Shown: positions 6,163 through 46,005 of the stretch, piece after piece | Position numbering within the stretch: the stretch's first letter is position 1 | Layout: the number at the start of each line of letters is the position of its first letter | Assembly (NCBI GenBank): GCA_012842395.1 | Contig: DUSX01000034.1 | Location: 62,001-126,000, forward strand | DNA from: Bacillota bacterium | GTDB lineage: Bacteria; Bacillota; SHA-98; UBA4971 | Reading direction: 5' to 3' | DNA length: 64,000 bases | Made by a program: the position numbers and the translations under genes | Notes under the pieces: generated by a model | Told to the model about the DNA's origin: nothing | Seen by the model: only the letters and a program-made list of their open reading frames with translations | Database searches by the model: none

Positions 6163-6238
6163 AGGGGAGTAGCTCAATGGGTAGAGCGGCGGTCTCCAAA
6201 ACCGTAGGTTGCGGGTTCAAGTCCTGTCTCCCCTGCCA
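6163..6238 (+). tRNA. tRNA-Trp (anticodon CCA)
   Basis: The cloverleaf is read directly. The acceptor arms are AGGGGAG and CTCCCCT with discriminator G and an encoded CCA. The D-arm is GCTC/GAGC, the anticodon loop is CTCCAAA with anticodon CCA, and the T-arm is GCGGG-TTCAAGT-CCTGT. From 6191 onward the gene coincides with the left attachment repeat of the integrated element, so its 3' half is restored by the element. Its original downstream sequence now lies beyond 14464. Confidence 0.96.
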
Positions 6239-6239
6239 G
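6191..6239 (+). other. attL of the integrated element (49-bp direct repeat)
   Basis: This 49-base segment, running from the anticodon arm of tRNA-Trp to one base past the CCA, recurs without mismatch at 14416-14464. The bases just outside differ on both sides (c versus t, t versus a). This is the expected trace of tyrosine-recombinase integration into a tRNA 3' end. Confidence 0.93.
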
Positions 6240-6269
6240 TATTCTCAAGGGTTTCAGGGTTCACGAGGA

Positions 6270-6308
6270 GACAGCAAAAAGCGGTTTGACAGCAAAATGA
6301 CAGCAAAA
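6270..6308. repeat. Putative integrase arm-type sites, left end
   Basis: Three direct copies of gacagcaaaa lie at 6270-6279, 6288-6297 and 6299-6308, just inside attL. The same decamer recurs just inside attR. The integrase has an AP2-like N-terminal arm-binding domain, so these are its likely sites. The role is inferred. Confidence 0.65.
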
Positions 6309-6314
6309 CGAGAA

Positions 6315-6340
6315 GGGGGCCCGGCAACCGCCGAGCCCCC
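6315..6340 (-). terminator. Likely terminator of the capsid transcription unit
   Basis: The stem gggggc/gccccc plus cggc/gccg has one bulge-like mismatch and an aacc loop. It sits 15 bases after the capsid stop on the minus strand and is followed by a moderately T-rich stretch. Confidence 0.6.
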
Positions 6341-6355
6341 CGATGCTCTCCCGCC

Positions 6356-7618
6356 TTAGACGCCCGGCACGATGCCGGTCACCTTCACGATATGGGTTGG
6401 CCGTCCCACCGCCACATCTGCCCGGAAGCGCGCGCGGATCAGCACTTGCCCGCGCGCCCAGGCGTCGCCAGCCTCGTAGCTCGCCTGAATGGTCACAGGC
6501 AGGCGCAGCCCCAGGAAGACATTCGAGAAGTCGCCCACCAGCGCCAGGGAAGCATTGGTGGCGGTCCCCACCGTCAGGTTCGTCGGCAGGGCGCTCGTCG
6601 TCAGCTTGCGGAGGTTCTGCCACGAGACAGGCGGCGTCAAGGGTTGGCCTGTTGTGTCGGTCAGCCGGTCAATGGCGCCCATGTCCCGAGGGTGCAGGAT
6701 GGCCGCAACCGCCTGCCCGTTGTTCTCAGCAATCTTCTGCACGGCCTCGGAGAACGGTGCGTAGGACGTGATGGCGCCGCCGTTCGCGCCGAGACTTACC
6801 TCCAGAACGCCCGGCGTGCTGGCAACGCCCAAGGGCTCTTCTCCAGCGCCACTGCCCAACAGAATCGCCTTGTCCAGCGCGAGCCCGGCGGCGGCGGCGA
6901 TGGCGTTTTCAACGGCCTGTCCCGCGAGGGTCGAATCTTCCAGGAGCTCCAGCGACATCCGCACGAGCACCATCCACGTCTTAGCCGTGAGTACCCGGGC
7001 ACCGAAGGCCGTGGTGCTGTCCTCGCCTATCGCCTCGTTCTCGGCCTTCCAGCCGCCGGTCGGGTCGGCCTCTAGCGAGGGAATAGTCAGCGTCTTTGAC
7101 TCCATCGGGACGGTCCTGACGCCCGCTTGAATCGCGACGGCGTTCGCCCGCGCCAGGTCAAGCACGAAAGCCGCGAGCTCGTCTGGGACGGTGAACCCGC
7201 CGGCAGAATCCGGCGTCGTCCCGAGGGCCGCCCGCACGTCGCGGGGGATGGTGCGCCAGTCACCTACAGCCATGGCGCGCACCAGTTGCCCGAAGGCATG
7301 CCGCTGTTCGTCCAGGCTCGCGCCAATCTCGGTCCGCCCAGTCGCCCGCACCCAAGCGGTCAGCTTATCCTGGGGAGCGAGCACCGCCACGCGAGCCCCG
7401 TCCCCGAAGTCAGCGCCCCCGGCGATACGGTAGCCAGTCAGGGGCTTCTGCTTCTCCTTGGCCACCTCGGCCTCAAGGTCGGCAATCTGCTTGCGAAGGT
7501 TCCGAACGTCGGCCATAATCGCCTCGGCCGTCTCCACGTCTCGAAGCTCCAGGGCCGCCTTGGCAGCCCGCTCGGCCTCGGCAAGTCTGGCGTGCAAGTC
7601 CCGCAGTTCTCTAGTCAT
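6356..7618 (-). CDS. HK97-fold phage major capsid protein
   Basis: A 420-residue protein. Residues 1-70 are a charged coiled coil (ELRDLHARLAEAERAAKAAL, VRNLRKQIADLEAEVAKEK) like the scaffold or delta segment of HK97 capsids. The core shows the typical capsid pattern: TTPDSAGGFTVPDELAAFVL, TLTIPSLEADPTGGWKAENE, MVLVRMSLELLEDS, ALDKAILLGSGAGEEPLGV, ILHPRDMGAIDRL and GDFSNVFLGLRLPVTI. In phages of this type a head protease removes the N-terminal segment; no protease gene is present here. The ATG overlaps the end of the upstream 55-residue gene, so the two are translationally coupled. It is the last gene before attL. It presumably forms the element's own shell or changes a helper's head; neither can be proved from sequence. 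Confidence 0.93.
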   Translation of the reverse strand: MTRELRDLHARLAEAERAAKAALELRDVETAEAIMADVRNLRKQIADLEAEVAKEKQKPLTGYRIAGGADFGDGARVAVLAPQDKLTAWVRATGRTEIGASLDEQRHAFGQLVRAMAVGDWRTIPRDVRAALGTTPDSAGGFTVPDELAAFVLDLARANAVAIQAGVRTVPMESKTLTIPSLEADPTGGWKAENEAIGEDSTTAFGARVLTAKTWMVLVRMSLELLEDSTLAGQAVENAIAAAAGLALDKAILLGSGAGEEPLGVASTPGVLEVSLGANGGAITSYAPFSEAVQKIAENNGQAVAAILHPRDMGAIDRLTDTTGQPLTPPVSWQNLRKLTTSALPTNLTVGTATNASLALVGDFSNVFLGLRLPVTIQASYEAGDAWARGQVLIRARFRADVAVGRPTHIVKVTGIVPGV

Positions 7619-7778
7619 CTTCGTATCCCTCCATGAATTCTTCGGCCAGGCGGCGCAGGCGCTTGAGTTTCAGGTATTCCTGCTCCTCCTCGGGAGTAAT
7701 GTTGCGCCGCTCCGCCTGAGCACGGTCAAGTATTGCTTCCTGCTCGGCGGCTATCGCCGCCGGTGTCCACTTCGGCAT
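7611..7778 (-). CDS. Small charged protein coupled to the capsid gene
   Basis: A 55-residue acidic/basic helical protein (TPAAIAAEQEAILDRAQAER, EEEQEYLKLKRLRRLAEEF). ATG 7778 is preceded by aggaggacagac, the best ribosome site in the cluster, so I prefer it over a longer frame opening at 7952. Its stop overlaps the capsid start by eight bases. The family is not recognised. A capsid-assembly accessory or small regulatory protein is possible but is only position-based inference. The stretch 7779-7954 upstream shows no other gene. Confidence 0.7.
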   Translation of the reverse strand: MPKWTPAAIAAEQEAILDRAQAERRNITPEEEQEYLKLKRLRRLAEEFMEGYEDD

Positions 7779-7954
7779 GTCTGTCCTCCTAGAACGACAA
7801 AAACCCGGCCTGCCCGCGTCTACCGCGAGCTGGTCCGGGCCTCCACCGGCCTTGGGACCTGAGAACGCCTCCACCGGCGCTCCCGGCCTGTTCGCTTTTT
7901 CAACATGGGCCGCTCCACCGCTAGCCCGTGAATATTCTACCATGCCTGCCATCG

Positions 7955-8143
7955 CTATTCAACCTCCACCCACTCGCCGCCGCGCGCGAGGCGCTTCTGC
8001 TTTCGCCGCTCCCGGCGCTCCTCGGCCTTCGCCTGCTTCACCAGCTCGTCAGCTTGCCTGCGTTCATCCTCTGTCATAGGACGCCCCGAGTCTAGGACGC
8101 CCTTCACGAAACGCCGCCACTGAGTCCACGCGCCCCCGGTCAT
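7955..8143 (-). CDS. Small basic hypothetical protein of the element
   Basis: A 62-residue protein, very rich in Arg, Lys and Glu in its second half (DELVKQAKAEERRERRKQKR), with a Trp-containing start (GGAWTQWRRFVKGVLDSG). Its ATG overlaps the stop of the upstream gene as ATGA, which supports it as a real coupled gene. A nucleic-acid-binding role would fit the composition, but no known family is recognised. Confidence 0.62.
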   Translation of the reverse strand: MTGGAWTQWRRFVKGVLDSGRPMTEDERRQADELVKQAKAEERRERRKQKRLARGGEWVEVE

Positions 8144-8388
8144 AGCCCGATGCCCTCCTCCGGCGGCAAGAATGCGTTCTCCGGGAGCCCGAGCCGCCGC
8201 GCACGCTCCTTGGCCTCCTCCCGGGCGGCCACGCGCCGCTCCATCTCATCCGCGAGCTCCCTGGCGAGACGGAACAGCACCTTGGCCGTGCTGGGTTCCT
8301 CCCGCGAGAGATAGCCCGGCGCGAGCAGGCGGACAATCTGATTACCTACTGCGTTGAGCTCATCGAAGCTCAGATCATCGAGTCGCAT
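8140..8388 (-). CDS. Small helical hypothetical protein of the element
   Basis: An 82-residue protein beginning MRLDDLSFDELNAVGNQIV, predicted almost wholly helical, with a charged middle (LARELADEMERRVAAREEAK). ATG 8388 has gaggaggg eight bases upstream and is preferred to an earlier ATG at 8418 that has no such site. It is coupled by ATGA to the next gene. The family is not recognised. Confidence 0.65.
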   Translation of the reverse strand: MRLDDLSFDELNAVGNQIVRLLAPGYLSREEPSTAKVLFRLARELADEMERRVAAREEAKERARRLGLPENAFLPPEEGIGL

Positions 8389-8430
8389 TTTAAGCCCTCC
8401 TCTTCTCGGTTTGTTCAAAAAGGGAAATTT

Positions 8431-8450
8431 GCGCGCGCGGGGGCGCGCGC
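8431..8450 (-). terminator. Possible terminator or hairpin before the small-gene block
   Basis: An 8-bp GC-only stem (gcgcgcgc on both arms, 4-base loop) is followed on the minus strand by aaatttccctttttg. It could end transcription from the replication genes or act as a leader hairpin for the genes downstream. Confidence 0.4.
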
Positions 8451-8513
8451 CCGGTCCAGGGAAACGGCCTAGAATATTTTTGAAATACCCCCTAGCGAAA
8501 ACCTACGACGTCA

Positions 8514-8610
8514 CGTAGCACCCGGCAAAGTGGGGTAAAACATCCGATTTTGCCCCATTTTTGCCGCGTAAGTGGGGACAAGCGAGGTTCCTTGCCCCAT
8601 CTGTGCTACG
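8514..8610. repeat. Iteron-like cluster inside an inverted repeat; candidate replication origin
   Basis: Four related sites alternate in orientation: tggggtaaaa (8531, plus), ttttgcccca (8548, minus), tggggacaag (8573, plus) and cttgcccca (8591, minus). They form two neighbouring potential hairpins. The group is enclosed by a perfect inverted repeat, cgtagcac (8514-8521) and gtgctacg (8603-8610). It lies in the largest non-coding gap of the leftward block, between two genes. Because the element encodes its own helicase, an origin is the leading guess; an operator array is the alternative. Confidence 0.6.
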
Positions 8611-8615
8611 CGCCG

Positions 8616-8858
8616 TCAGTGAAGAAGGTCCAGCGCCGCAAGGACGTCCGCGAGAATCGCCCGGGCCGTCTCCGCGTCCTCGCTCTCGCGCATGGCCTCG
8701 ACGTCCAGGGTGACGGTCTTCCCGGGGCGGGTCCTCCCCTCGCCGTCCTCCCAGTCCGGGAGGCTCACCTGCAACCTCCCGGCCTTCGGGAACCACCTCA
8801 GCACGTTCTTGCCGCTCGCCGCCACGATAGGCTTCTCATTCTCCCAGTACCGATTCAT
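8616..8858 (-). CDS. Hypothetical element protein (80 aa)
   Basis: An 80-residue protein with a beta-rich first half (KPIVAASGKNVLRWFP, RLQVSLPDWEDGEG) and a helical second half (DAETARAILADVLAALDLL). The ATG has aggagg at good spacing. The fold could be a small beta-sheet nucleic-acid binder, but I do not recognise a family. The stop lies six bases from the iteron-like cluster. Confidence 0.68.
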   Translation of the reverse strand: MNRYWENEKPIVAASGKNVLRWFPKAGRLQVSLPDWEDGEGRTRPGKTVTLDVEAMRESEDAETARAILADVLAALDLLH

Positions 8859-8870
8859 GCTTACCGCCTC

Positions 8871-8990
8871 CTATCTCCCGGCCTCGGCGCCCTCGGGCCG
8901 GGTGAACGCCGCCACGGGCTTCTGTGGGGCGCTCGCCACGCGGCGGCGGGTCCTCCTGTCGCGCCAGGATGCCCTGCAAGCTCGGGTCAC
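8871..8990 (-). CDS. Possible 39-aa protein; surrounding gap has a 20-bp direct repeat
   Basis: A GTG-started frame (8990) ends with a TAG inside the ribosome site of the next gene and has the codon bias of its neighbours toward its end (PQKPVAAFTRPEGAEAGR). Support is weak. Within 8859-9134, the 20-mer gcgccaggatgccctgcaag at 8961-8980 recurs at 9098-9117 with one mismatch. The gap may therefore be mostly non-coding or a decayed duplication. Confidence 0.3.
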   Translation of the reverse strand: MTRACRASWRDRRTRRRVASAPQKPVAAFTRPEGAEAGR

Positions 8991-9134
8991 CCCCTCGCGC
9001 GCGATCCCGTTCCGGGGTTTTCGGAGGCGCGCGCCCGGTCCCGGCGGCCTGCGTCGGCTTGCGCGGTAGGGGGGTGCAAGCGTTACCTCAATCTGCCGCG
9101 CCAGGATGCCCTACAAGGGGGCTTTCGCACCTGC

Positions 9135-9341
9135 TCAGGTATCATCCCCTGTCCCGCCCGTTTCTCGCGGCTCCCGGGGCCTCCTGCGGGCCTCCTCGCG
9201 GGCTTCCCGCACCCGGGCTCTCAGCACAGCCTTCCCCCGCTCAAGCGCCCGCGTCCAAATCTCGCGGTCGTGGGCAAGCAGGCTCAGAAACTCGGCCTCC
9301 GTCAGGACCATAACGCACCTCGGCAAGCGAACCTCGATCAT
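9135..9341 (-). CDS. Hypothetical element protein (68 aa)
   Basis: Starts MIEVRLPRCVMVLTEAEFL and continues as an Arg/Glu-rich helix (WTRALERGKAVLRARVREAR). The ATG overlaps the TGA of the upstream 39-residue zinc-ribbon gene (ATGA), and GGGGGTGA precedes it. The beginning resembles short phage proteins with one beta strand and a long helix. No function can be assigned. Confidence 0.6.
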   Translation of the reverse strand: MIEVRLPRCVMVLTEAEFLSLLAHDREIWTRALERGKAVLRARVREAREEARRRPREPRETGGTGDDT

Positions 9342-9457
9342 GCGCTCACCCCCAGACAACCGGGATTCCACCAGCACCGCCAGCGCCTGCCGCAGGCCGG
9401 ACAGCGATACAGCGCGAGGAGGCAGCGAGGACAGGCGTCGGCTAGTTGGCGTCGCAT
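9338..9457 (-). CDS. Tiny zinc-ribbon protein (39 aa)
   Basis: A 39-residue frame with two CxxC pairs (DACPRCLLALYRCPACGRRW) and four Trp residues. ATG 9457 is preceded by gaggaggtg at good spacing inside the end of the upstream gene, and its stop is coupled (ATGA) to the next gene. Both features make it more than a chance frame. It follows another zinc protein and the replication helicase, so a small accessory to replication or transcription is a fair guess. Confidence 0.6.
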   Translation of the reverse strand: MRRQLADACPRCLLALYRCPACGRRWRCWWNPGCLGVSA

Positions 9458-9792
9458 ACGCAATGCACCTCCTCGAACGCGCGTCCGGCCTCCTGCGAGG
9501 ACCACCTTGCCACGATGCGCCCAGTGTCGGGCGGGCAGCACCTCGCGCACGTCCACGGACCGTAAGCGATGCTCTGCCAGAACAGGGTCCCGCCGCACCG
9601 GTCGCACACCGGAGGCGGGAGGTCCGGCGCAGGCCGCAACAGGCGCACCAGCTCAGTCTTGCGCCCGATTAGCGCGGCCTTCAGCTCAGGCCTGAGCACT
9701 CCTGCTGGAGCCTCCACGCGGAGCTTGTCCCCGACGAGGGATACACGAGCACCTAGGGAACGGAGGCGGTCGAGGACGGCCTCGGGAGTCAT
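9442..9792 (-). CDS. Replication-linked protein: TubC-N-like domain plus zinc finger
   Basis: A 116-residue protein. Residues 1-50 (PEAVLDRLRSLGARVSLVGD, LRPELKAALIGRKTELVRLL) resemble the small TubC N-terminal docking-like domain often seen beside phage replication proteins. Residues 62-90 carry CDRCGG and CARCCPP, a four-Cys zinc site. The ATG overlaps the helicase stop (ATGA). The helicase lacks a primase or zinc domain, so this may act with it as a separate subunit. That is inference from order and domains. Confidence 0.6.
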   Translation of the reverse strand: MTPEAVLDRLRSLGARVSLVGDKLRVEAPAGVLRPELKAALIGRKTELVRLLRPAPDLPPPVCDRCGGTLFWQSIAYGPWTCARCCPPDTGRIVARWSSQEAGRAFEEVHCVCDAN

Positions 9793-11312
9793 ACCTCGAA
9801 CACCTCCCGGTCGCCGGTCTTGCGGTCGGAGTGAAGGAAGTGAACCTTAGTGAACCTTTTTTCCGGTTTTTCTTCTTGTACTGTACTCTCGCGAGAAATA
9901 TGGGAAATTGGTTCACTATCGTTCACTTGGTTCACTAACCCGATGCCGTACCACCAGAAGGGTCCCCCTGTGCTCCTGCGCCGCTCGAACCCGCGTTCCG
10001 CTAATCGCATGCCGAAGTTGCGCTGTGCTAACGGCCTTTCACCGTTCGCCTCGCACCACTCCACGTATGCCCTGTAGAGGTCCCCCGCTCTGGCCTTCGC
10101 GAGAGGGTTCACGGTGCAGCATTCCTCCAGGAAGTGCGCGAGAACGTCCATTTCGGCGCGATATGCCCCGGTCGCCTCGCGTACCTCGTCCGGCACTCCA
10201 AGACCGTGTTTCTGCCAGTCTAGGCACCCGCGCACAGCCCAGGCGAGAATGCCGGACAGCTCGGCCTCAAAACGGGCCATAAGTTCCCGCCTCGGGAGGC
10301 GTTCACCCTCGGGTATCCGCACGTCGAACGGGATAAGGCGAATGCGGTCCCAGATCGCGGCGTCCGTCCCTCGGATAACCGGCCTGTGATTCGTCCCAAG
10401 CCATAGCTTGAATTCCGGCTTGAATTCGAACCACTCGGCGCGCATGAACCGCGCCGTGATGGTGTCGCCTCCCGTGAGGTCCTTAATCTTCGCCTCAGCG
10501 AGCCTCCGGCCTTCCTCGGCCTCGGAGGCGTAGACGAACCGCGCACCCCTGAGCCTCGCTACGTCGTTCGGCACACCGTCCCGGTCACGCGCAAGGAGTG
10601 TGTCGGTTGTGGTCCTCGCTGCATAGTCGCCGAGGAGCAGTGCCACAGTCTCAAGGAACGTCGTCTTGCCATTTGCGCCGGTCCCGTAGAGGATGAAGCA
10701 AACCCGCTCGTCTGTGCAGCCGGTCAGGGAATACCCCACGGCGCGCTGGAGGAACGTCACCAGGTCCACGCGGCCTGCCATGATCCGGTCGAGGAAGGCG
10801 CACCATTGCGGGCAGGTGGCATTCGGGTCATAGACGACCGGCGCGAGCCTCGTGAGCAGGTCTCGCGGGTCATGCGGCCTCAACTCGCCTGTGCGCAGGT
10901 CAAGAGTCCCGTTCTGGCAGTTGAGCAGCCACGGGTCCCTATCCAGCTCCTCCGGGAGGACGGGAATCCCCGGCTCGGTCTTGAGGAGTTCCACCATCGC
11001 ACGGATTTTCTGCGCCGCCTCGCTCCTCAATGCATGTTTCGCGAGGTCCTTTCGGCGCCGGTCGTCTTCCTCTGAAGCGGCCTCAAGGTACATGCGCCTA
11101 ACAGTATCCTTCGCACGAGCCTGCACTTCGCCGGCCAGATCCTCCTTCCACCGCCTTCCATCCCAGACGAACCAACGCTGGAAGGGATGGCAGTAGCGCA
11201 GGTCGGGGCCGTGAGCTATCAGGAAGCGCCGCGCGTTTCCGAGGTCCGTCGTGTGCAAGTCCTCAAAAGGGTTGTGGAAACCTTCCTGCTGTGCTAACCT
11301 GGAAGTGGCCAT
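9789..11312 (-). CDS. D5/P4-family phage replication helicase (SF3), lacking a primase domain
   Basis: A 507-residue protein with the D5_N region (RDPWLLNCQNGTLDLRTGEL, LLTRLAPVVYDPNATCPQW) and an SF3 ATPase: Walker A GTGANGKT at residues 210-217, Walker B region ARFVYASEAEEG and sensor motif FKLWLGTNHRP. A winged C-terminal part follows (GDLYRAYVEWCEANGERPLA). P4-type alpha proteins also carry an N-terminal TOPRIM or prim-pol domain; here only about 110 unassigned residues precede D5_N and no primase motifs are visible. ATG 11312 has aaggaggt at ideal spacing. It should unwind the element's origin. Confidence 0.93.
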   Translation of the reverse strand: MATSRLAQQEGFHNPFEDLHTTDLGNARRFLIAHGPDLRYCHPFQRWFVWDGRRWKEDLAGEVQARAKDTVRRMYLEAASEEDDRRRKDLAKHALRSEAAQKIRAMVELLKTEPGIPVLPEELDRDPWLLNCQNGTLDLRTGELRPHDPRDLLTRLAPVVYDPNATCPQWCAFLDRIMAGRVDLVTFLQRAVGYSLTGCTDERVCFILYGTGANGKTTFLETVALLLGDYAARTTTDTLLARDRDGVPNDVARLRGARFVYASEAEEGRRLAEAKIKDLTGGDTITARFMRAEWFEFKPEFKLWLGTNHRPVIRGTDAAIWDRIRLIPFDVRIPEGERLPRRELMARFEAELSGILAWAVRGCLDWQKHGLGVPDEVREATGAYRAEMDVLAHFLEECCTVNPLAKARAGDLYRAYVEWCEANGERPLAQRNFGMRLAERGFERRRSTGGPFWWYGIGLVNQVNDSEPISHISRESTVQEEKPEKRFTKVHFLHSDRKTGDREVFEV

Positions 11313-11354
11313 GCTGAACCTCCTTCCGGAACCCCGGCGCGAGCCGGGCCTTTT

Positions 11355-11558
11355 CTACGCCTCGCCGTTCCGCGCCCGCTCCCACCGGGCCGTCTGCTCC
11401 TCGATCCAGCGCCGCAACCACGACGCCGGAATGCGGCAGGTCCGCCCCAAGCGAATGGTCGGGATCTCCCCACGGTTAATGGCCTCATAAAGGAAACTCC
11501 GGCTGTACCCGCACATTTGGGCCGCCTCGGTGACGGTCAAAAGCAACTTCTCAGGCAT
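11355..11558 (-). CDS. Excisionase-like helix-turn-helix protein
   Basis: A 67-residue MerR-like/Xis winged helix: LLTVTEAAQMCGYSRSFLYE, AINRGEIPTIRLGRTCRIPA, then a Trp-rich basic helix. This is the usual form of excisionase/AlpA-type proteins that direct excision and may activate transcription. ATG 11558 lies inside the end of the XRE gene, so they are coupled. It is preferred to the longer frame because the conserved domain starts at once. Confidence 0.85.
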   Translation of the reverse strand: MPEKLLLTVTEAAQMCGYSRSFLYEAINRGEIPTIRLGRTCRIPASWLRRWIEEQTARWERARNGEA

Positions 11559-11757
11559 GGTCCCGCTCATCGTCGTCGCCCTCCAAATCCTCCACGGCGA
11601 CGCCCAGGGCCGCCGCAAGCCTCTCCAACTGCGAGTGATACGGTTTCGCATACCCGCGCTCGAAAGCACTTATCAGCTGAGGATGCAGCCCCGCCAGGTA
11701 CGCCAACTGCGTCTGCGTCATGCGGCGCGCCTGCCGCAGCTCACGCAACTTCCGCAT
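11551..11757 (-). CDS. XRE-family repressor-like regulator
   Basis: A 68-residue single helix-turn-helix protein (ARRMTQTQLAYLAGLHPQLI, SAFERGYAKPYHSQLERLAA) with a short acidic tail. It has no ligand or self-cleavage domain, so induction by RecA-style cleavage is not expected. It heads the leftward operon and faces the divergent region 11758-11872, which is where it would bind. It probably decides whether the replication and capsid genes are expressed, as Stl or CI-like proteins do in other satellites. Confidence 0.87.
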   Translation of the reverse strand: MRKLRELRQARRMTQTQLAYLAGLHPQLISAFERGYAKPYHSQLERLAAALGVAVEDLEGDDDERDHA

Positions 11758-11872
11758 GTTCTGTCGCCCCCCTTGACGGAATTTGCTTCTCGCGTTAAGT
11801 TTAAATCAGGGACACACGGGGTCCGAGTATCTTAGCGCGTGATTATCGCGTGATGCGTGGAGGCGTACCAGA
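11758..11872. promoter_or_regulatory. Divergent control region of the element
   Basis: It separates the leftward and rightward operons. On the plus strand, TTGACG and TAAGTT are 17 bases apart. A direct repeat of cgcgtgat (spacing three bases) lies near 11835-11853, followed by a third partial copy, and could be an operator. No clear minus-strand promoter was found. All assignments are by eye. Confidence 0.45.
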
Positions 11873-12805
11873 TTGGAGCTGATTCCTGGGCAATTTGAGT
11901 TCTTGTGGGACGTTCCGGACCGAGGCTTCGTGTGGGATGACGCCGCCGAGCTGCTTCCGGGCACCACGGGGAAGCCAGCGCCCGGCCAGCGCCGCCTTGC
12001 ACCGCCGTATCTCGTCCAGCACCCAGAGACAACTTCCCGCCTGCGCCGTCGGCCGCTAGAGGATGGAACACTATTCTTGGAGTTTGCGTCTCTCGAACCC
12101 ACTCCGGAGGCTATTCTCAAGTTCGCCAACAAGCATGGCTTCTTGGGCCTCACGGTTGCGCTTATGCCTGCAAACGGACGATCCGAGTTACGCTTAGGAG
12201 AAAGTCTCGCGGCCTGGGTTGCAGCGATAGAGGACATGCACGCCTACGTTCAGGTATGGGAAATGCTACAGCGTCGCGATGCGGGAGGGCTCGGGCAGTT
12301 TATCGTGTGGAGCCCCGACGGTAGCGGGGTCACGTTCTATGCAGGCGGTCTCGAAGACGTTCCGAGGGACCGTGGGGGCCTGCCCAGACACCCGTTCTAC
12401 CATATCGCGCACAAGTATGAGTTCGCGGATCATCTCGCGAAGTGGAGGCTCGGAGACGTAATAGAACCCGCGCGGCTCCTGCTTGTGCGTGTGGTCAGCG
12501 AACGCCTCAACGGGCAAGCCTCGCCGCGCCTGCTCCTCAGCCGAAAAGGGAACGGGTTCGCGGGCTTCGTCATGCCAACGAACCTCTACAGTGCTATGTG
12601 GGTCCAGTTCTACCGTGCCATTTTGGGTGAAGCGCGGTATCGCCGATGCGAGATTTGCGGCCAATGGATGGACGTTACGTACTCCCGGCGGGATAAACGG
12701 CAACACACGGAATGCGGGTGGCGGGTGCGAGGACGACGGCGCAACGAAAAGAAACGCAAAGCACGGCAAGCATTGCAAGACACGGGAGGCACAGACAGGC
12801 CATAG
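11873..12805 (+). CDS. Hypothetical protein with C-terminal CGNR-like zinc finger
   Basis: A 310-residue protein. The first 200 residues have no family I recognise. The C-terminus has the arrangement of CGNR/ABATE-type zinc fingers: a helix (LYSAMWVQFYRAILGE), then RRCEICGQWMDVTYSRRDKR and HTECGWRVRGRRRNEKKRK, a Cys/His set with a basic tail, suggesting DNA or RNA binding. The start is TTG 11873 with a ggaggcg site. It is the first rightward gene and leads toward the integrase. Cargo or a transcription regulator are the two likely roles. Confidence 0.6.
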   Translation: MELIPGQFEFLWDVPDRGFVWDDAAELLPGTTGKPAPGQRRLAPPYLVQHPETTSRLRRRPLEDGTLFLEFASLEPTPEAILKFANKHGFLGLTVALMPANGRSELRLGESLAAWVAAIEDMHAYVQVWEMLQRRDAGGLGQFIVWSPDGSGVTFYAGGLEDVPRDRGGLPRHPFYHIAHKYEFADHLAKWRLGDVIEPARLLLVRVVSERLNGQASPRLLLSRKGNGFAGFVMPTNLYSAMWVQFYRAILGEARYRRCEICGQWMDVTYSRRDKRQHTECGWRVRGRRRNEKKRKARQALQDTGGTDRP

Positions 12806-12849
12806 CGCCGCGGGCCACGATAGGGGGCCGGGCGAAAGGAGAATGAACA

Positions 12850-13116
12850 GTGGGAGAGGCGATGGTTCTGGCACTGAGTCTGAACGATTCTAACCCTGGA
12901 ATGCGGAGACTAATCATTGTCCGAGAGGGGGCAAACGGGCTCGAAATTCATGAGCGGCGCGTGTCTCGCGATAGCGATCCGCTACGGAGGCAGAGGGAAG
13001 AGGCGAGGGTCGCCTGTAAGCGCCATGACGATCCACTGTGGGGCGAGCTTGAAGACATATTCAGGGACGTTCCCGCAGCCCTAAGCCTGGAGGCGAAAGC
13101 CAATGTCGAAGCGTAG
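12850..13116 (+). CDS. Hypothetical element protein (88 aa) upstream of integrase
   Basis: An 88-residue protein (GTG 12850 with gaaaggag; ATG 12862 also possible) containing RRLIIVREGANGLEIHERRV and ending DIFRDVPAALSLEAKANVEA. The stop overlaps the integrase ATG by 14 bases, so it is probably co-translated. The family is not recognised. Confidence 0.62.
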   Translation: MGEAMVLALSLNDSNPGMRRLIIVREGANGLEIHERRVSRDSDPLRRQREEARVACKRHDDPLWGELEDIFRDVPAALSLEAKANVEA

Positions 13117-14290
13117 GGGTCACGGGGAGGGTTCCATCTACCAGCGTAAGGACGGGCGATGGTGCGCCACCGTCACCGTGGGCAGGGATGCCACCGGCAA
13201 GCCTAAGCGGAGGTACATTTACGGGCGCACAAGGAAGGAGGTCCAGGAACAGCTAACGAAGCTCCTTGCCGACGCGCAAGGCGGCCTGCCGATTGACGTG
13301 ACAAAGCAGACGGTCGGGCAGTTCCTGCTGCACTGGCTGAATGACACCGTCCGGGGCTCTCGGGCGCCGAAGACGTACCTTCGGTACGAAAGCACGATCA
13401 ATACCCACCTCATCCCCGCCCTGAGCAACATCCCCCTGGCGAAGCTCGCTCCACAACACCTTCTGCGCCTCTACAGGGAGCTACAGGACGCCGGCGGGCA
13501 CGACAAGGCGCACAAGTGCCATGCGACCTTGCACTGTGCCCTGAGCACAGCCGTCAAGTTGGGGCTTATTCCTCGCAACCCTGCCGACCTTGTTGACGCC
13601 CCGAGGGTCGAGCGAAAGGAAATGCGGGTCCTCACACCCGAGGAGACCGCCAGGCTCTTTGATGCCGCCCGGGGCGATAGATACTATGCCTTATACGTCC
13701 TCGCGGCCACATGCGGCCTGCGCCTGGGTGAATTGCTCGGCCTGAAATGGCAGGACATCGACTTCGACGCAGGAACCCTCCAGGTGCAGAGGCAGCTTCA
13801 GTGGATTACGGGAGCAGGGCCGACGTTTAAGGAGCCGAAAACCAAAGGCTCCCGCCGCACAATCTACCTCCCCCGTCTCGCGATTGACGCCCTGAAGGAG
13901 CACCGCAAGCGGCAGGCCGCCGAAAGGCTCAAACTGGGCGAAGTATGGCAGGCTCAGGACCTCGTGTTCCCCTCCGAGATAGGAACGCCCGCTAATCCAT
14001 CAAACATCTATAAGTGGTCCTGGCACCCGATTCTTGAGAAGGCAGGATTGCCCCGAATCAGAATTCACGATCTGAGGCATACCGCCGCGAGCCTCCTGCT
14101 CCTCGCGAACGAGAATCCCCGCGTGGTGCAGGAGCTACTTGGGCACTCGGATATATCGACCACGCTCGGGATATATAGCCATATCCTGCCCTCGATGAAG
14201 CAACGGGTCGCGGCCACGATGGACAGAATCCTTTCCCCTCAGCCCGAACAGCGCAGGGTCCGAGGGTCGGATGAACCTACGGTTATTTGA
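13103..14290 (+). CDS. int: Tyrosine-recombinase integrase with AP2-like arm-binding domain
   Basis: A 395-residue integrase. Residues 1-60 are the AP2-like arm-binding domain (GEGSIYQRKDGRWCATVTVG), followed by a SAM-like core-binding domain (TVGQFLLHWLNDTVRG) and the catalytic domain. Catalytic residues are Arg in CGLRLGELLGLKW, HDLRHTAAS (His-x-x-Arg), LGHSDISTTLGIYSH (His and the nucleophile Tyr). It lies 125 bases from attR and reads toward it, the usual place for an enzyme that recombines at a tRNA 3' end. It should carry out integration, and excision together with the Xis-like protein. Confidence 0.96.
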   Translation: MSKRRGHGEGSIYQRKDGRWCATVTVGRDATGKPKRRYIYGRTRKEVQEQLTKLLADAQGGLPIDVTKQTVGQFLLHWLNDTVRGSRAPKTYLRYESTINTHLIPALSNIPLAKLAPQHLLRLYRELQDAGGHDKAHKCHATLHCALSTAVKLGLIPRNPADLVDAPRVERKEMRVLTPEETARLFDAARGDRYYALYVLAATCGLRLGELLGLKWQDIDFDAGTLQVQRQLQWITGAGPTFKEPKTKGSRRTIYLPRLAIDALKEHRKRQAAERLKLGEVWQAQDLVFPSEIGTPANPSNIYKWSWHPILEKAGLPRIRIHDLRHTAASLLLLANENPRVVQELLGHSDISTTLGIYSHILPSMKQRVAATMDRILSPQPEQRRVRGSDEPTVI

Positions 14291-14305
14291 CCAATGCTCG
14301 TTTCT

Positions 14306-14325
14306 GACAGCAAAACTGACAGCAA
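14306..14325. repeat. Putative integrase arm-type sites, right end
   Basis: gacagcaaaa at 14306-14315 and gacagcaatc at 14318-14327 match the sites inside attL (the right copy of the second is degenerate). Same orientation as at the left end. Confidence 0.6.
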
Positions 14326-14415
14326 TCGGAGAAGAAAAACGTGCATCTGGGTGGAAATGGTAGACATAACGCCCAGCTAGAAGGACGGTAAGGACGACTA
14401 TGGACGGTTCGGAAT

Positions 14416-14464
14416 GGTCTCCAAAACCGTAGGTTGCGGGTTCAAGTCCTGTCTCCCCTGCCAG
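14416..14464 (+). other. attR of the integrated element (tRNA-Trp 3' fragment)
   Basis: The exact copy of 6191-6239, consisting of the tRNA-Trp anticodon arm through CCA with no 5' half upstream. It is the displaced host end of the original gene, followed by the host terminator. Confidence 0.93.
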
Positions 14465-14475
14465 AAAAGGTTTAG

Positions 14476-14500
14476 CCCCGCGAGAATTCGCGGGGTTTTT
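14476..14500 (+). terminator. Original tRNA-Trp terminator, displaced by the element
   Basis: An 8-bp perfect stem (ccccgcga/tcgcgggg, loop gaat) is followed by five T residues on the plus strand. It lies 12 bases after attR, which is where the tRNA-Trp terminator would sit in the empty site. Confidence 0.85.
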
Positions 14501-14517
14501 CTATTATGCCGCTGCTC

Positions 14518-45195: not shown

Positions 45196-46005
45196 TTACC
45201 CACGGATGAAGAGCAGAGCGGCCATCCGCCCGGTTACGCCCCGGGCGCCCCTGTAGGAGAAGAATAGGTCTTGCCTGCAGGACGTGCAGAAGGTTGAGGT
45301 GAAGATGCTGCCGGGCGAAAGCCCAGCCATCTCTAGCTCTCTTCGGCAGGCTTCCTTAAGGTCCAACCGGAAGCGATCCTGACCCACCTGGCGGACGACA
45401 TCATGGCTGCATGCCGCAGCACTACACGCCTCCGCGACCTCTCTTCCGACCTCGTAGCAACACGCGCCTATGGACGGGCCGATGCCTGCCAGCAAATCGC
45501 GGGGGCGCAGGTCGAACGCCCGGCACATCACCTCCACGGCCTTCGCTGGAGCCCGGCGCGCAATACCACGCCATCCGGCGTGAACGAGCCCCACGGCGCG
45601 CCCGGAGCGGTGCACCAAGAACACAGGCACGCAGTCCGCCACATAGGAGGAGATCACAGTGCCCGGTGACGCCGTCACAAGGCAATCAGTCAATGGAATG
45701 CCTGGAGCCCACGGCGACCAGTCCCGCCCGCGGTCCTCCGGACCCACCACTGCCACCGCATCCCCGTGGACTTGCTCGCCCGCCACAAGCGAGCCGTCGG
45801 GTGCCCTGATCGCCGAAAGAGCCAGTCGCCGGTTTTCGCGCACCCGGCCCGGGTCATCGCCAACGTGAAAGCCCATGTTGAGCGTGGCAAACGGCCCCTC
45901 GCTCCGCCCACCAAGCCTGGTGGTGAAGGCGTGAGACACCGTCCCGAGCGCCTCGATCTCCGGAAACACCAAGTACTCCACGCCGTTCGAACAACGCGCC
46001 TCCAA
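45196..46005 (-). CDS. pgeF: Peptidoglycan editing factor PgeF (laccase-domain, YlmD/YfiH family)
   Basis: A 269-residue protein with SHAFTTRLGGRSEGPFATLN, GEQVHGDAVAVV, the metal/purine-site motif SYVADCVPVFLVHRSGRAVG, VHAGWRGIARR and GPSIGACCYEVG. These define the family once called polyphenol oxidase, now linked to purine nucleoside phosphorylase/deaminase activity and peptidoglycan quality control. TTG 46005 has acggaggt upstream. Confidence 0.93.
   Translation of the reverse strand: MEARCSNGVEYLVFPEIEALGTVSHAFTTRLGGRSEGPFATLNMGFHVGDDPGRVRENRRLALSAIRAPDGSLVAGEQVHGDAVAVVGPEDRGRDWSPWAPGIPLTDCLVTASPGTVISSYVADCVPVFLVHRSGRAVGLVHAGWRGIARRAPAKAVEVMCRAFDLRPRDLLAGIGPSIGACCYEVGREVAEACSAAACSHDVVRQVGQDRFRLDLKEACRRELEMAGLSPGSIFTSTFCTSCRQDLFFSYRGARGVTGRMAALLFIRG

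Follow-up and report, generated by a model that had tools for sequence, protein, structure and literature searches.

Known capsid-related phage satellites either remodel the shell of a helper phage or bring a whole head. In SaPIbov5, a Staphylococcus aureus pathogenicity island (SaPI), the capsid homolog Ccm makes the pentamers and the helper major capsid protein (MCP) the hexamers of T=4 shells, with both proteins losing their delta regions, which indicates that one MCP homolog is enough to alter shell size when the rest comes from the helper (PMC8569155). Capsid genes are described as the commonest late gene of Gram-negative phage-inducible chromosomal islands (PICIs) (PMC10111431), and lone capsid genes have precedents in Ccm (PMC8569155; PMC5052747) and in the islands PmCI172 and EcCICFT073 (PMC6092414). 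Here we describe an element of ~8.2 kb in a Bacillota bacterium, located at 6191-14464 of the 64,000-nt stretch that was analysed (hereafter the window; assembly GCA_012842395.1, contig DUSX01000034.1, positions 62,001-126,000, forward strand), in which an HK97-type MCP is the sole recognisable structural gene. The element is probably an integrated phage satellite that has its own shell protein, often joined in such elements by a small terminase (TerS), and that takes portal, protease, packaging motor and tail from a helper phage. The view in the initial annotation of this DNA that capsid satellites usually bring more head genes, as capsid-forming PICIs (cfPICIs) do, needs correcting, since satellites with a single capsid gene have already been described; for a separate MCP lineage of small cross-phylum elements, paired with TerS and not with the large terminase (TerL), no description was found in open PubMed Central (PMC) papers.

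Below, G000 denotes the window's own genome, G001-G004 are sister genomes of the same genus, and L-numbers are the loci compared. The window element is an intact integrated element in a tRNA-Trp gene. Its direct repeats of 49 nt are identical (6191-6239 and 14416-14464; start spacing 8225), every reading frame is open and no decay is visible, all as initially annotated, and the empty sites that the annotation had proposed to look for in sister strains were found in G001-G004. A terminator-like hairpin lies directly 3' of tRNA-Trp in G003 and G004; in the window it is found beyond attR (~14474-14505), displaced by 8.2 kb. The 9-nt motif TGACAGCAA is paired just within both element ends at a spacing of 11-12 nt, with five copies in the whole window against 0.35 expected, and the same motif stands in tandem at either end of L021, the element of G001, though this is inserted at a different site among other genes. 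A shared arm-type motif is to be expected because the two integrases are related (53% identical), and the excess of the motif, together with its recurrence at the ends of L021, indicates that the element boundaries are not due to chance. The features of the element are as follows.

6163-6238, + strand: tRNA-Trp (CCA), the attachment gene, intact despite the insertion (ARAGORN, Rfam)
6191-6239, + strand: attL, 49-nt core repeat equal to the 3' part of tRNA-Trp (repeat match; empty attB in G001-G004)
6287-6306, + strand: left putative integrase arm-site pair, two copies of TGACAGCAA 11 nt apart (motif count)
6356-7618, - strand: MCP, HK97 fold, 420 aa (Pfam Phage_capsid 1.6e-35; PHROG major head 9.7e-46)
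7611-7778, - strand: 55-aa protein overlapping the MCP start (open reading frame, ORF)
7955-8143, - strand: 62-aa basic protein (ORF); comparable small proteins, by eye, precede the MCP in L021 and L022
8140-8388, - strand: small protein, overlap with next gene (ORF)
8616-8858, - strand: 80-aa protein; no P27-type TerS in this region
9135-9341, - strand: small protein with homologs in L021 and L081 (sequence comparison)
9338-9457, - strand: small zinc-ribbon-like protein with a homolog in L021 (sequence comparison)
9442-9792, - strand: TubC_N-domain protein, overlapping the primase gene (Pfam 3.1e-11; homologs in the same place in L022 and L025)
9789-11312, - strand: D5-type primase/helicase for replication, 507 aa (Pfam, PHROGs; 76-79% identical in L021)
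11355-11558, - strand: HTH_17 excisionase-like protein (Pfam; 84.5% identical in L021)
11551-11757, - strand: XRE-type regulator (PHROGs)
11873-12805, + strand: 310-aa protein with clustered Cys residues in its C-terminal part; its gene diverges from that of XRE, and it is a candidate regulator or cargo protein
12850-13116, + strand: 88-aa protein overlapping the integrase start (ORF)
13103-14290, + strand: tyrosine integrase, 395 aa (Pfam 7.8e-27; homologs in most related elements)
14305-14325, + strand: right putative integrase arm-site pair, TGACAGCAA (motif count)
14416-14464, + strand: attR, 49-nt core repeat (repeat match)

Pfam and PHROG searches bore out the claim that the MCP stands without terminase, portal or protease: none of the proteins of the window element matched a TerL, portal, protease, connector or tail family. 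The best structural hint besides the MCP is a Tail_completion_gp17 match of the 80-aa protein (E = 0.034), far under the family cut-off. An AlphaFold2 model of the MCP, based on 24 aligned sequences, has the HK97 fold (mean predicted local distance difference test score 83.8), and its best PDB matches are HK97 gp5 (~1e-16, Foldseek). The N-terminal region (~1-56) is predicted to be delta-like, that is, helical, scaffold-like and laid out as the HK97 delta region, with two long helices (2-24 and 28-56) followed by a linker modelled with low confidence (57-74). The window MCP and two of its relatives share only 23-32% identity with their nearest annotated phage MCPs.

A scan of viral contigs with the window MCP alone as query gave no matches; a profile built from three MCP sequences found further loci, and a 14-row profile was then used on genomes. 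These profile searches placed the same MCP lineage in elements of 7.7-10.5 kb, mostly tRNA-bounded, in Bacillota, Pseudomonadota, Acidobacteriota and Myxococcota, the majority of them without TerL, portal and protease. The following are repeat-bounded, with TerL and portal absent inside.

L021, Bacillota (G001), 8.5 kb: imperfect 30-nt repeats; MCP ~57% and helicase 76-79% identical to those of the window
L022, same class as the window, 8.6 kb: tRNA-Leu
L081, Desulforudis metagenome-assembled genome (MAG), 9.1 kb: tRNA-Lys
L082, Altererythrobacter, 9.7 kb: tRNA-Asn
L083, Qipengyuania, 10.3 kb: tRNA-Arg
L086, Solibacter MAG, 8.6 kb: tRNA-Lys
L087 and L177, Myxococcota, 9.4 and 9.1 kb: repeat-bounded
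L088, Wenzhouxiangella, 10.1 kb: tRNA-Glu
L133, L134 and L135, Sphingomonadales, 10.3, 7.7 and 10.5 kb: repeat-bounded

Pfam was run on the main proteins of the window element, L021, L022, L081, L082, L083 and L086-L088, and in L133-L135 and L177 the absence of TerL and portal inside the element was judged by reading the genes; whole-genome searches of G299, G310 and G253, from this latter group, gave portal matches outside the elements. L084 (Rhodocyclales) and L174 (G645, of the window's phylum) have a similar look, with one end not found. A head-completion protein and an HNH protein are additionally encoded in L022, and a tape-measure-like protein in L083, L092 and L093, that of L083 being resembled, by eye, by one in L133. 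Strong MCP matches occurred in seven of 301 genomes of the Sphingomonadales order (E < 1e-70; one in a Mu-like element and one without an integrase nearby), in six of 399 genomes of the window's phylum (1e-50; two being tailed phages) and in two of 379 Myxococcota genomes. The satellite reading of the initial annotation is upheld in that compact relatives exist in G001 and G015 (both of the same class), G645 (phylum) and other phyla, and in that the att-bounded region has no full-length prophage among its relatives.

Some further loci carry related MCPs in other settings. An apparent Mu-like transposable element of 7.3 kb with a lone MCP lies in L137 (140-7478), and L093 (3451-7758) combines a related MCP with an S78 protease and the tail tape-measure-like protein; both are possible transposable phage satellites. 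Two Clostridioides difficile plasmids of 7.9-8.3 kb (L143, NZ_CP149729.1; L144, NZ_CP149749.1) encode a lone MCP, HNH, helicase and XRE proteins; their MCPs are distantly related to this lineage and, on a long branch of the tree, join those of the satellites. Particle-protected DNA has been reported for a pCD-WTSI1-like element in which a capsid gene was not found (PMC10993401). The C. difficile element MA_2_phi4, considered as evidence that lone-MCP plasmids get packaged, was dropped, as its authors report no capsid gene (PMC10993401).

A P27-type TerS was found in seven elements (L021, L083, L087, L088, L092, L133 and L134), none of which has TerL inside the element; Pfam Terminase_4 was above its cut-off in L134, just under it in L021 and below it in L133. 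No TerS was detected in the window, L022, L081, L082, L086 or L135. TerS without TerL is the usual sign of steering the motor of a helper. The TerS of L021 (9715-10050) and of L087 (8798-9340) are 66% identical over 104 residues, which, between Bacillota and Myxococcota, points to exchange between phyla.

The locus L092 (3256-6421, 6820-16280 and 16296-16646) carries phage TerL and portal genes and then a Clp-type protease gene split by an insert of ~9.4 kb, which encodes TerS, MCP, integrase and a TMP_3 tape measure. The second part of the protease gene lies beyond the insert, and the contig stops before the helper's own MCP. This layout matches that of a helper-embedded satellite, and it is the most direct hint as to which parts such elements may take from a helper.

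Fuller head sets also occur. L089, L090 and L091 encode portal and protease, with no tail genes seen. The viral contigs L090 (9.1 kb) and L091 (10.5 kb) encode an MCP of the clade, portal and S78 protease, TerL being found in L091 only; judging from their identical terminal repeats (127 and 123 nt), they are probably circular, with genome sizes of 8.9 and 10.4 kb. In the Sphingomonadales order, the cfPICI-like loci L138-L142 encode MCP, S78 protease, portal, TerL and mostly integrase, with no tail genes seen; L139, the only member checked by Pfam, is ~10 kb and has tRNA-Gln repeats. L025 (1116-11461; G016, same class as the window) encodes TerS, TerL and a large portal, with no tail genes seen nearby, and an MCP whose long N-terminal extension resembles, by eye, a fused protease; its helicase is 55% identical to that of the window.

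In a tree of 48 MCPs, 23 from tail-less elements were split from the others (support 96/92), the opposite side of this branch holding all 20 MCPs of tailed phages and prophages and five that are cfPICI-like. Before L174-L177 were added, support for the same branch was 90/87 and the long-branched L088 stood on the phage side; L175 and L176, which this profile had also found and which are ordinary tailed phages, group with phages. The tree has long branches and a short inner branch, and its sampling started from the window's MCP. L089, L090 and L091 are on the element side, so that one lineage contains lone MCPs and fuller head sets side by side. That all lone-MCP rows arose only once was not rejected (approximately unbiased test, p = 0.104), nor is it shown, because these three loci with more head genes sit among the lone-MCP rows. 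Among the MCPs of L082, L083 and L133, which are 90-95% identical, dN/dS is 0.045-0.068, and the integrases of L082 and L083 are just 62% identical; in these elements the MCP is under strong purifying selection and is kept more strictly than the integrase. A broader proposal, which we put forward only tentatively, is that these elements are cross-phylum satellites with an MCP lineage of their own, long apart from tailed phages and horizontally exchanged, that would complete small shells by itself while portal, protease, motor and tail are borrowed; TerS and MCP would form the core of the piracy, with other head genes gained and lost.

The draft genome of the window is 98% complete in 61 contigs. 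Profile searches of the whole genomes G000 and G001 gave no TerL_nuclease and no portal match, which indicates that there is no recognisable resident helper in this host, and the only MCP in G000 is that of the window element. The TerL searches were repeated with PF20441, and phrog_2 was dropped as the sole TerL test because it missed the TerL of L092. The lone TerL-profile match in G000 (phrog_2, 1.9e-4, at a locus with a 334-aa frame) has equals in G001, G003, G004 and G005 and is therefore probably an unrelated chromosomal ATPase. In G015, TerL and portal are present on other contigs.

With integration, regulation and replication genes of its own and an incomplete virion set, the window element has the make-up of a satellite. 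We propose that infection by an incoming tailed phage would induce excision and D5-driven replication, and that the satellite MCP would be made alongside the helper late genes and enter shells built on the helper portal. It would either form an entire small shell or, like SaPIbov5 Ccm, supply one type of capsomer in a shell shared with helper MCP. The N-terminal region of the satellite MCP would be removed by the helper protease, and the helper terminase would pack the 8-10 kb genome, guided by the satellite TerS in relatives and perhaps via a helper-like cos or pac site in the window element; the particle would be completed with helper tails. The lone MCP would set particle size and give genome-fitting shells, and may take parts from the helper. 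Several points weigh against this scheme. A six-frame profile search found no TerS in the window element, no helper phage is recognisable in this genome, and dN/dS between the MCPs of the window and L021 is 0.28, which with dS saturated is weak evidence. EcCICFT073, a PICI of Escherichia coli, has a capsid gene yet is packaged only as phage-sized DNA, and phage growth did not return to normal when that gene was deleted (PMC6092414); possession of a capsid gene thus does not by itself imply control of shell size.

One alternative, which we regard as unlikely, is that the MCP acts mainly as a weapon that poisons or misdirects helper capsid assembly as a phage defence, with satellite DNA, if moved at all, travelling in helper shells. 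Ccm redirects and thereby interferes with helper capsid assembly (PMC8569155), and a host and a sister (G001) without a prophage helper would fit defence against incoming phages; a pure poison needs no TerS, yet MCP and TerS are paired in seven relatives, and the conservation of the whole HK97 fold suggests a shell protein that assembles. It is likewise improbable that the MCP gene was captured as a late gene and contributes little to packaging, the satellite being packed into helper heads of full size as a concatemer, for which EcCICFT073 offers a parallel: the MCPs form a separate lineage (96/92) with dN/dS near 0.05, and, of the structural genes, only that of the MCP is retained throughout the lone-MCP elements, whose other head genes vary. 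We give very little weight to decay of a prophage down to a handful of genes. This would account for the missing head genes (most of them) and tail genes (all of them), but it does not fit an element whose att repeats are identical, whose overlapping genes are intact and whose arm sites are conserved, nor a gene plan that recurs at a different site in G001 and a size that is similar in many hosts. A full-prophage origin was rejected on the grounds that the close relatives examined are all compact and that the tailed-phage matches L175 and L176 group with phages, and a defective prophage on the absence of broken frames, the empty sites in G001-G004 and the compact relative in G001. Encapsulins use HK97 folds as well, but a domesticated, encapsulin-like protein shell or other cell function on a non-phage integrative element is scarcely credible, given that the profile and fold matches are phage MCPs, that the N-terminus appears delta-like and that TerS, head-completion protein, portal or tape-measure genes accompany the MCP in relatives.

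The MCP lineage points to a stable intermediate condition, where a satellite owns just its shell protein, in many cases together with TerS, and it offers a natural series for the gain and loss of head genes: MCP alone, MCP with TerS, MCP with tape measure, MCP with portal and protease, and a full head. Cultured hosts (Altererythrobacter xiamenensis, Qipengyuania polymorpha and Wenzhouxiangella sediminis) make the lineage testable, and such elements would escape searches that expect a full head. The genome of Q. polymorpha 1NDH17 additionally contains TerL and portal genes, located on a separate contig.

Among the remaining features of the window, the 310-aa protein had no match in Pfam, PHROGs or PADLOC, and PADLOC found no defence genes in the variable region. 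The TubC_N-domain gene overlaps or directly follows a primase gene in the window (9442-9792), L022 (10065-10403) and L025 (3707-4021), beside primases that are quite unlike one another (D5 type versus Prim-Pol type). A tRNA-Ala of 84 nt with anticodon AGC, called by ARAGORN at 45497-45580, is below the Rfam gathering score and is probably a false call.

The phiRv1 and phiRv2 elements of Mycobacterium tuberculosis, prophage-like, ~10 kb long and with few head genes plus Int and Xis, have a similar plan on their general description, with MCP and protease, unlike the window element. The cfPICIs have their own capsid and use helper tails, a description that the tail-less relatives L091, L138-L142 and L025 fit; they carry TerL, TerS, portal, protease and connectors besides the capsid (PMC10690885), so that the window element, with MCP only, is not a cfPICI. 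As a candidate canonical PICI, the window element has int, HTH_17, XRE and D5 helicase genes with divergent transcription, and Gram-negative PICIs, described mainly from enterobacteria and Pasteurellaceae, share a similar plan of int, AlpA/HTH_17, primase and then one or a few late genes, often a capsid (PMC6092414; PMC10111431). The window element differs from them in its XRE gene, its tRNA-Trp site, the lack of any Bro-type gene seen and a D5 helicase match that starts after the primase part of the PHROG profiles. Some PICIs are embedded within helper late genes, including a CLP protease site in enterobacteria (PMC6092414; PMC10111431), as in L092; only L092 fits this among the compared loci, and the window element, at tRNA-Trp, is not helper-embedded. 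The SaPIbov5-type (cos) SaPI likewise has one MCP homolog with an N-terminal delta region as its only head gene and takes portal, protease, terminase and tail from the helper, as we propose for the window element. Ccm is homologous to the MCP of its helper and needs it for hexamers, whereas neither a helper nor any phage with a closely related MCP was identified for the window element, and the window MCP, unlike Ccm, belongs to a lineage that spans phyla.

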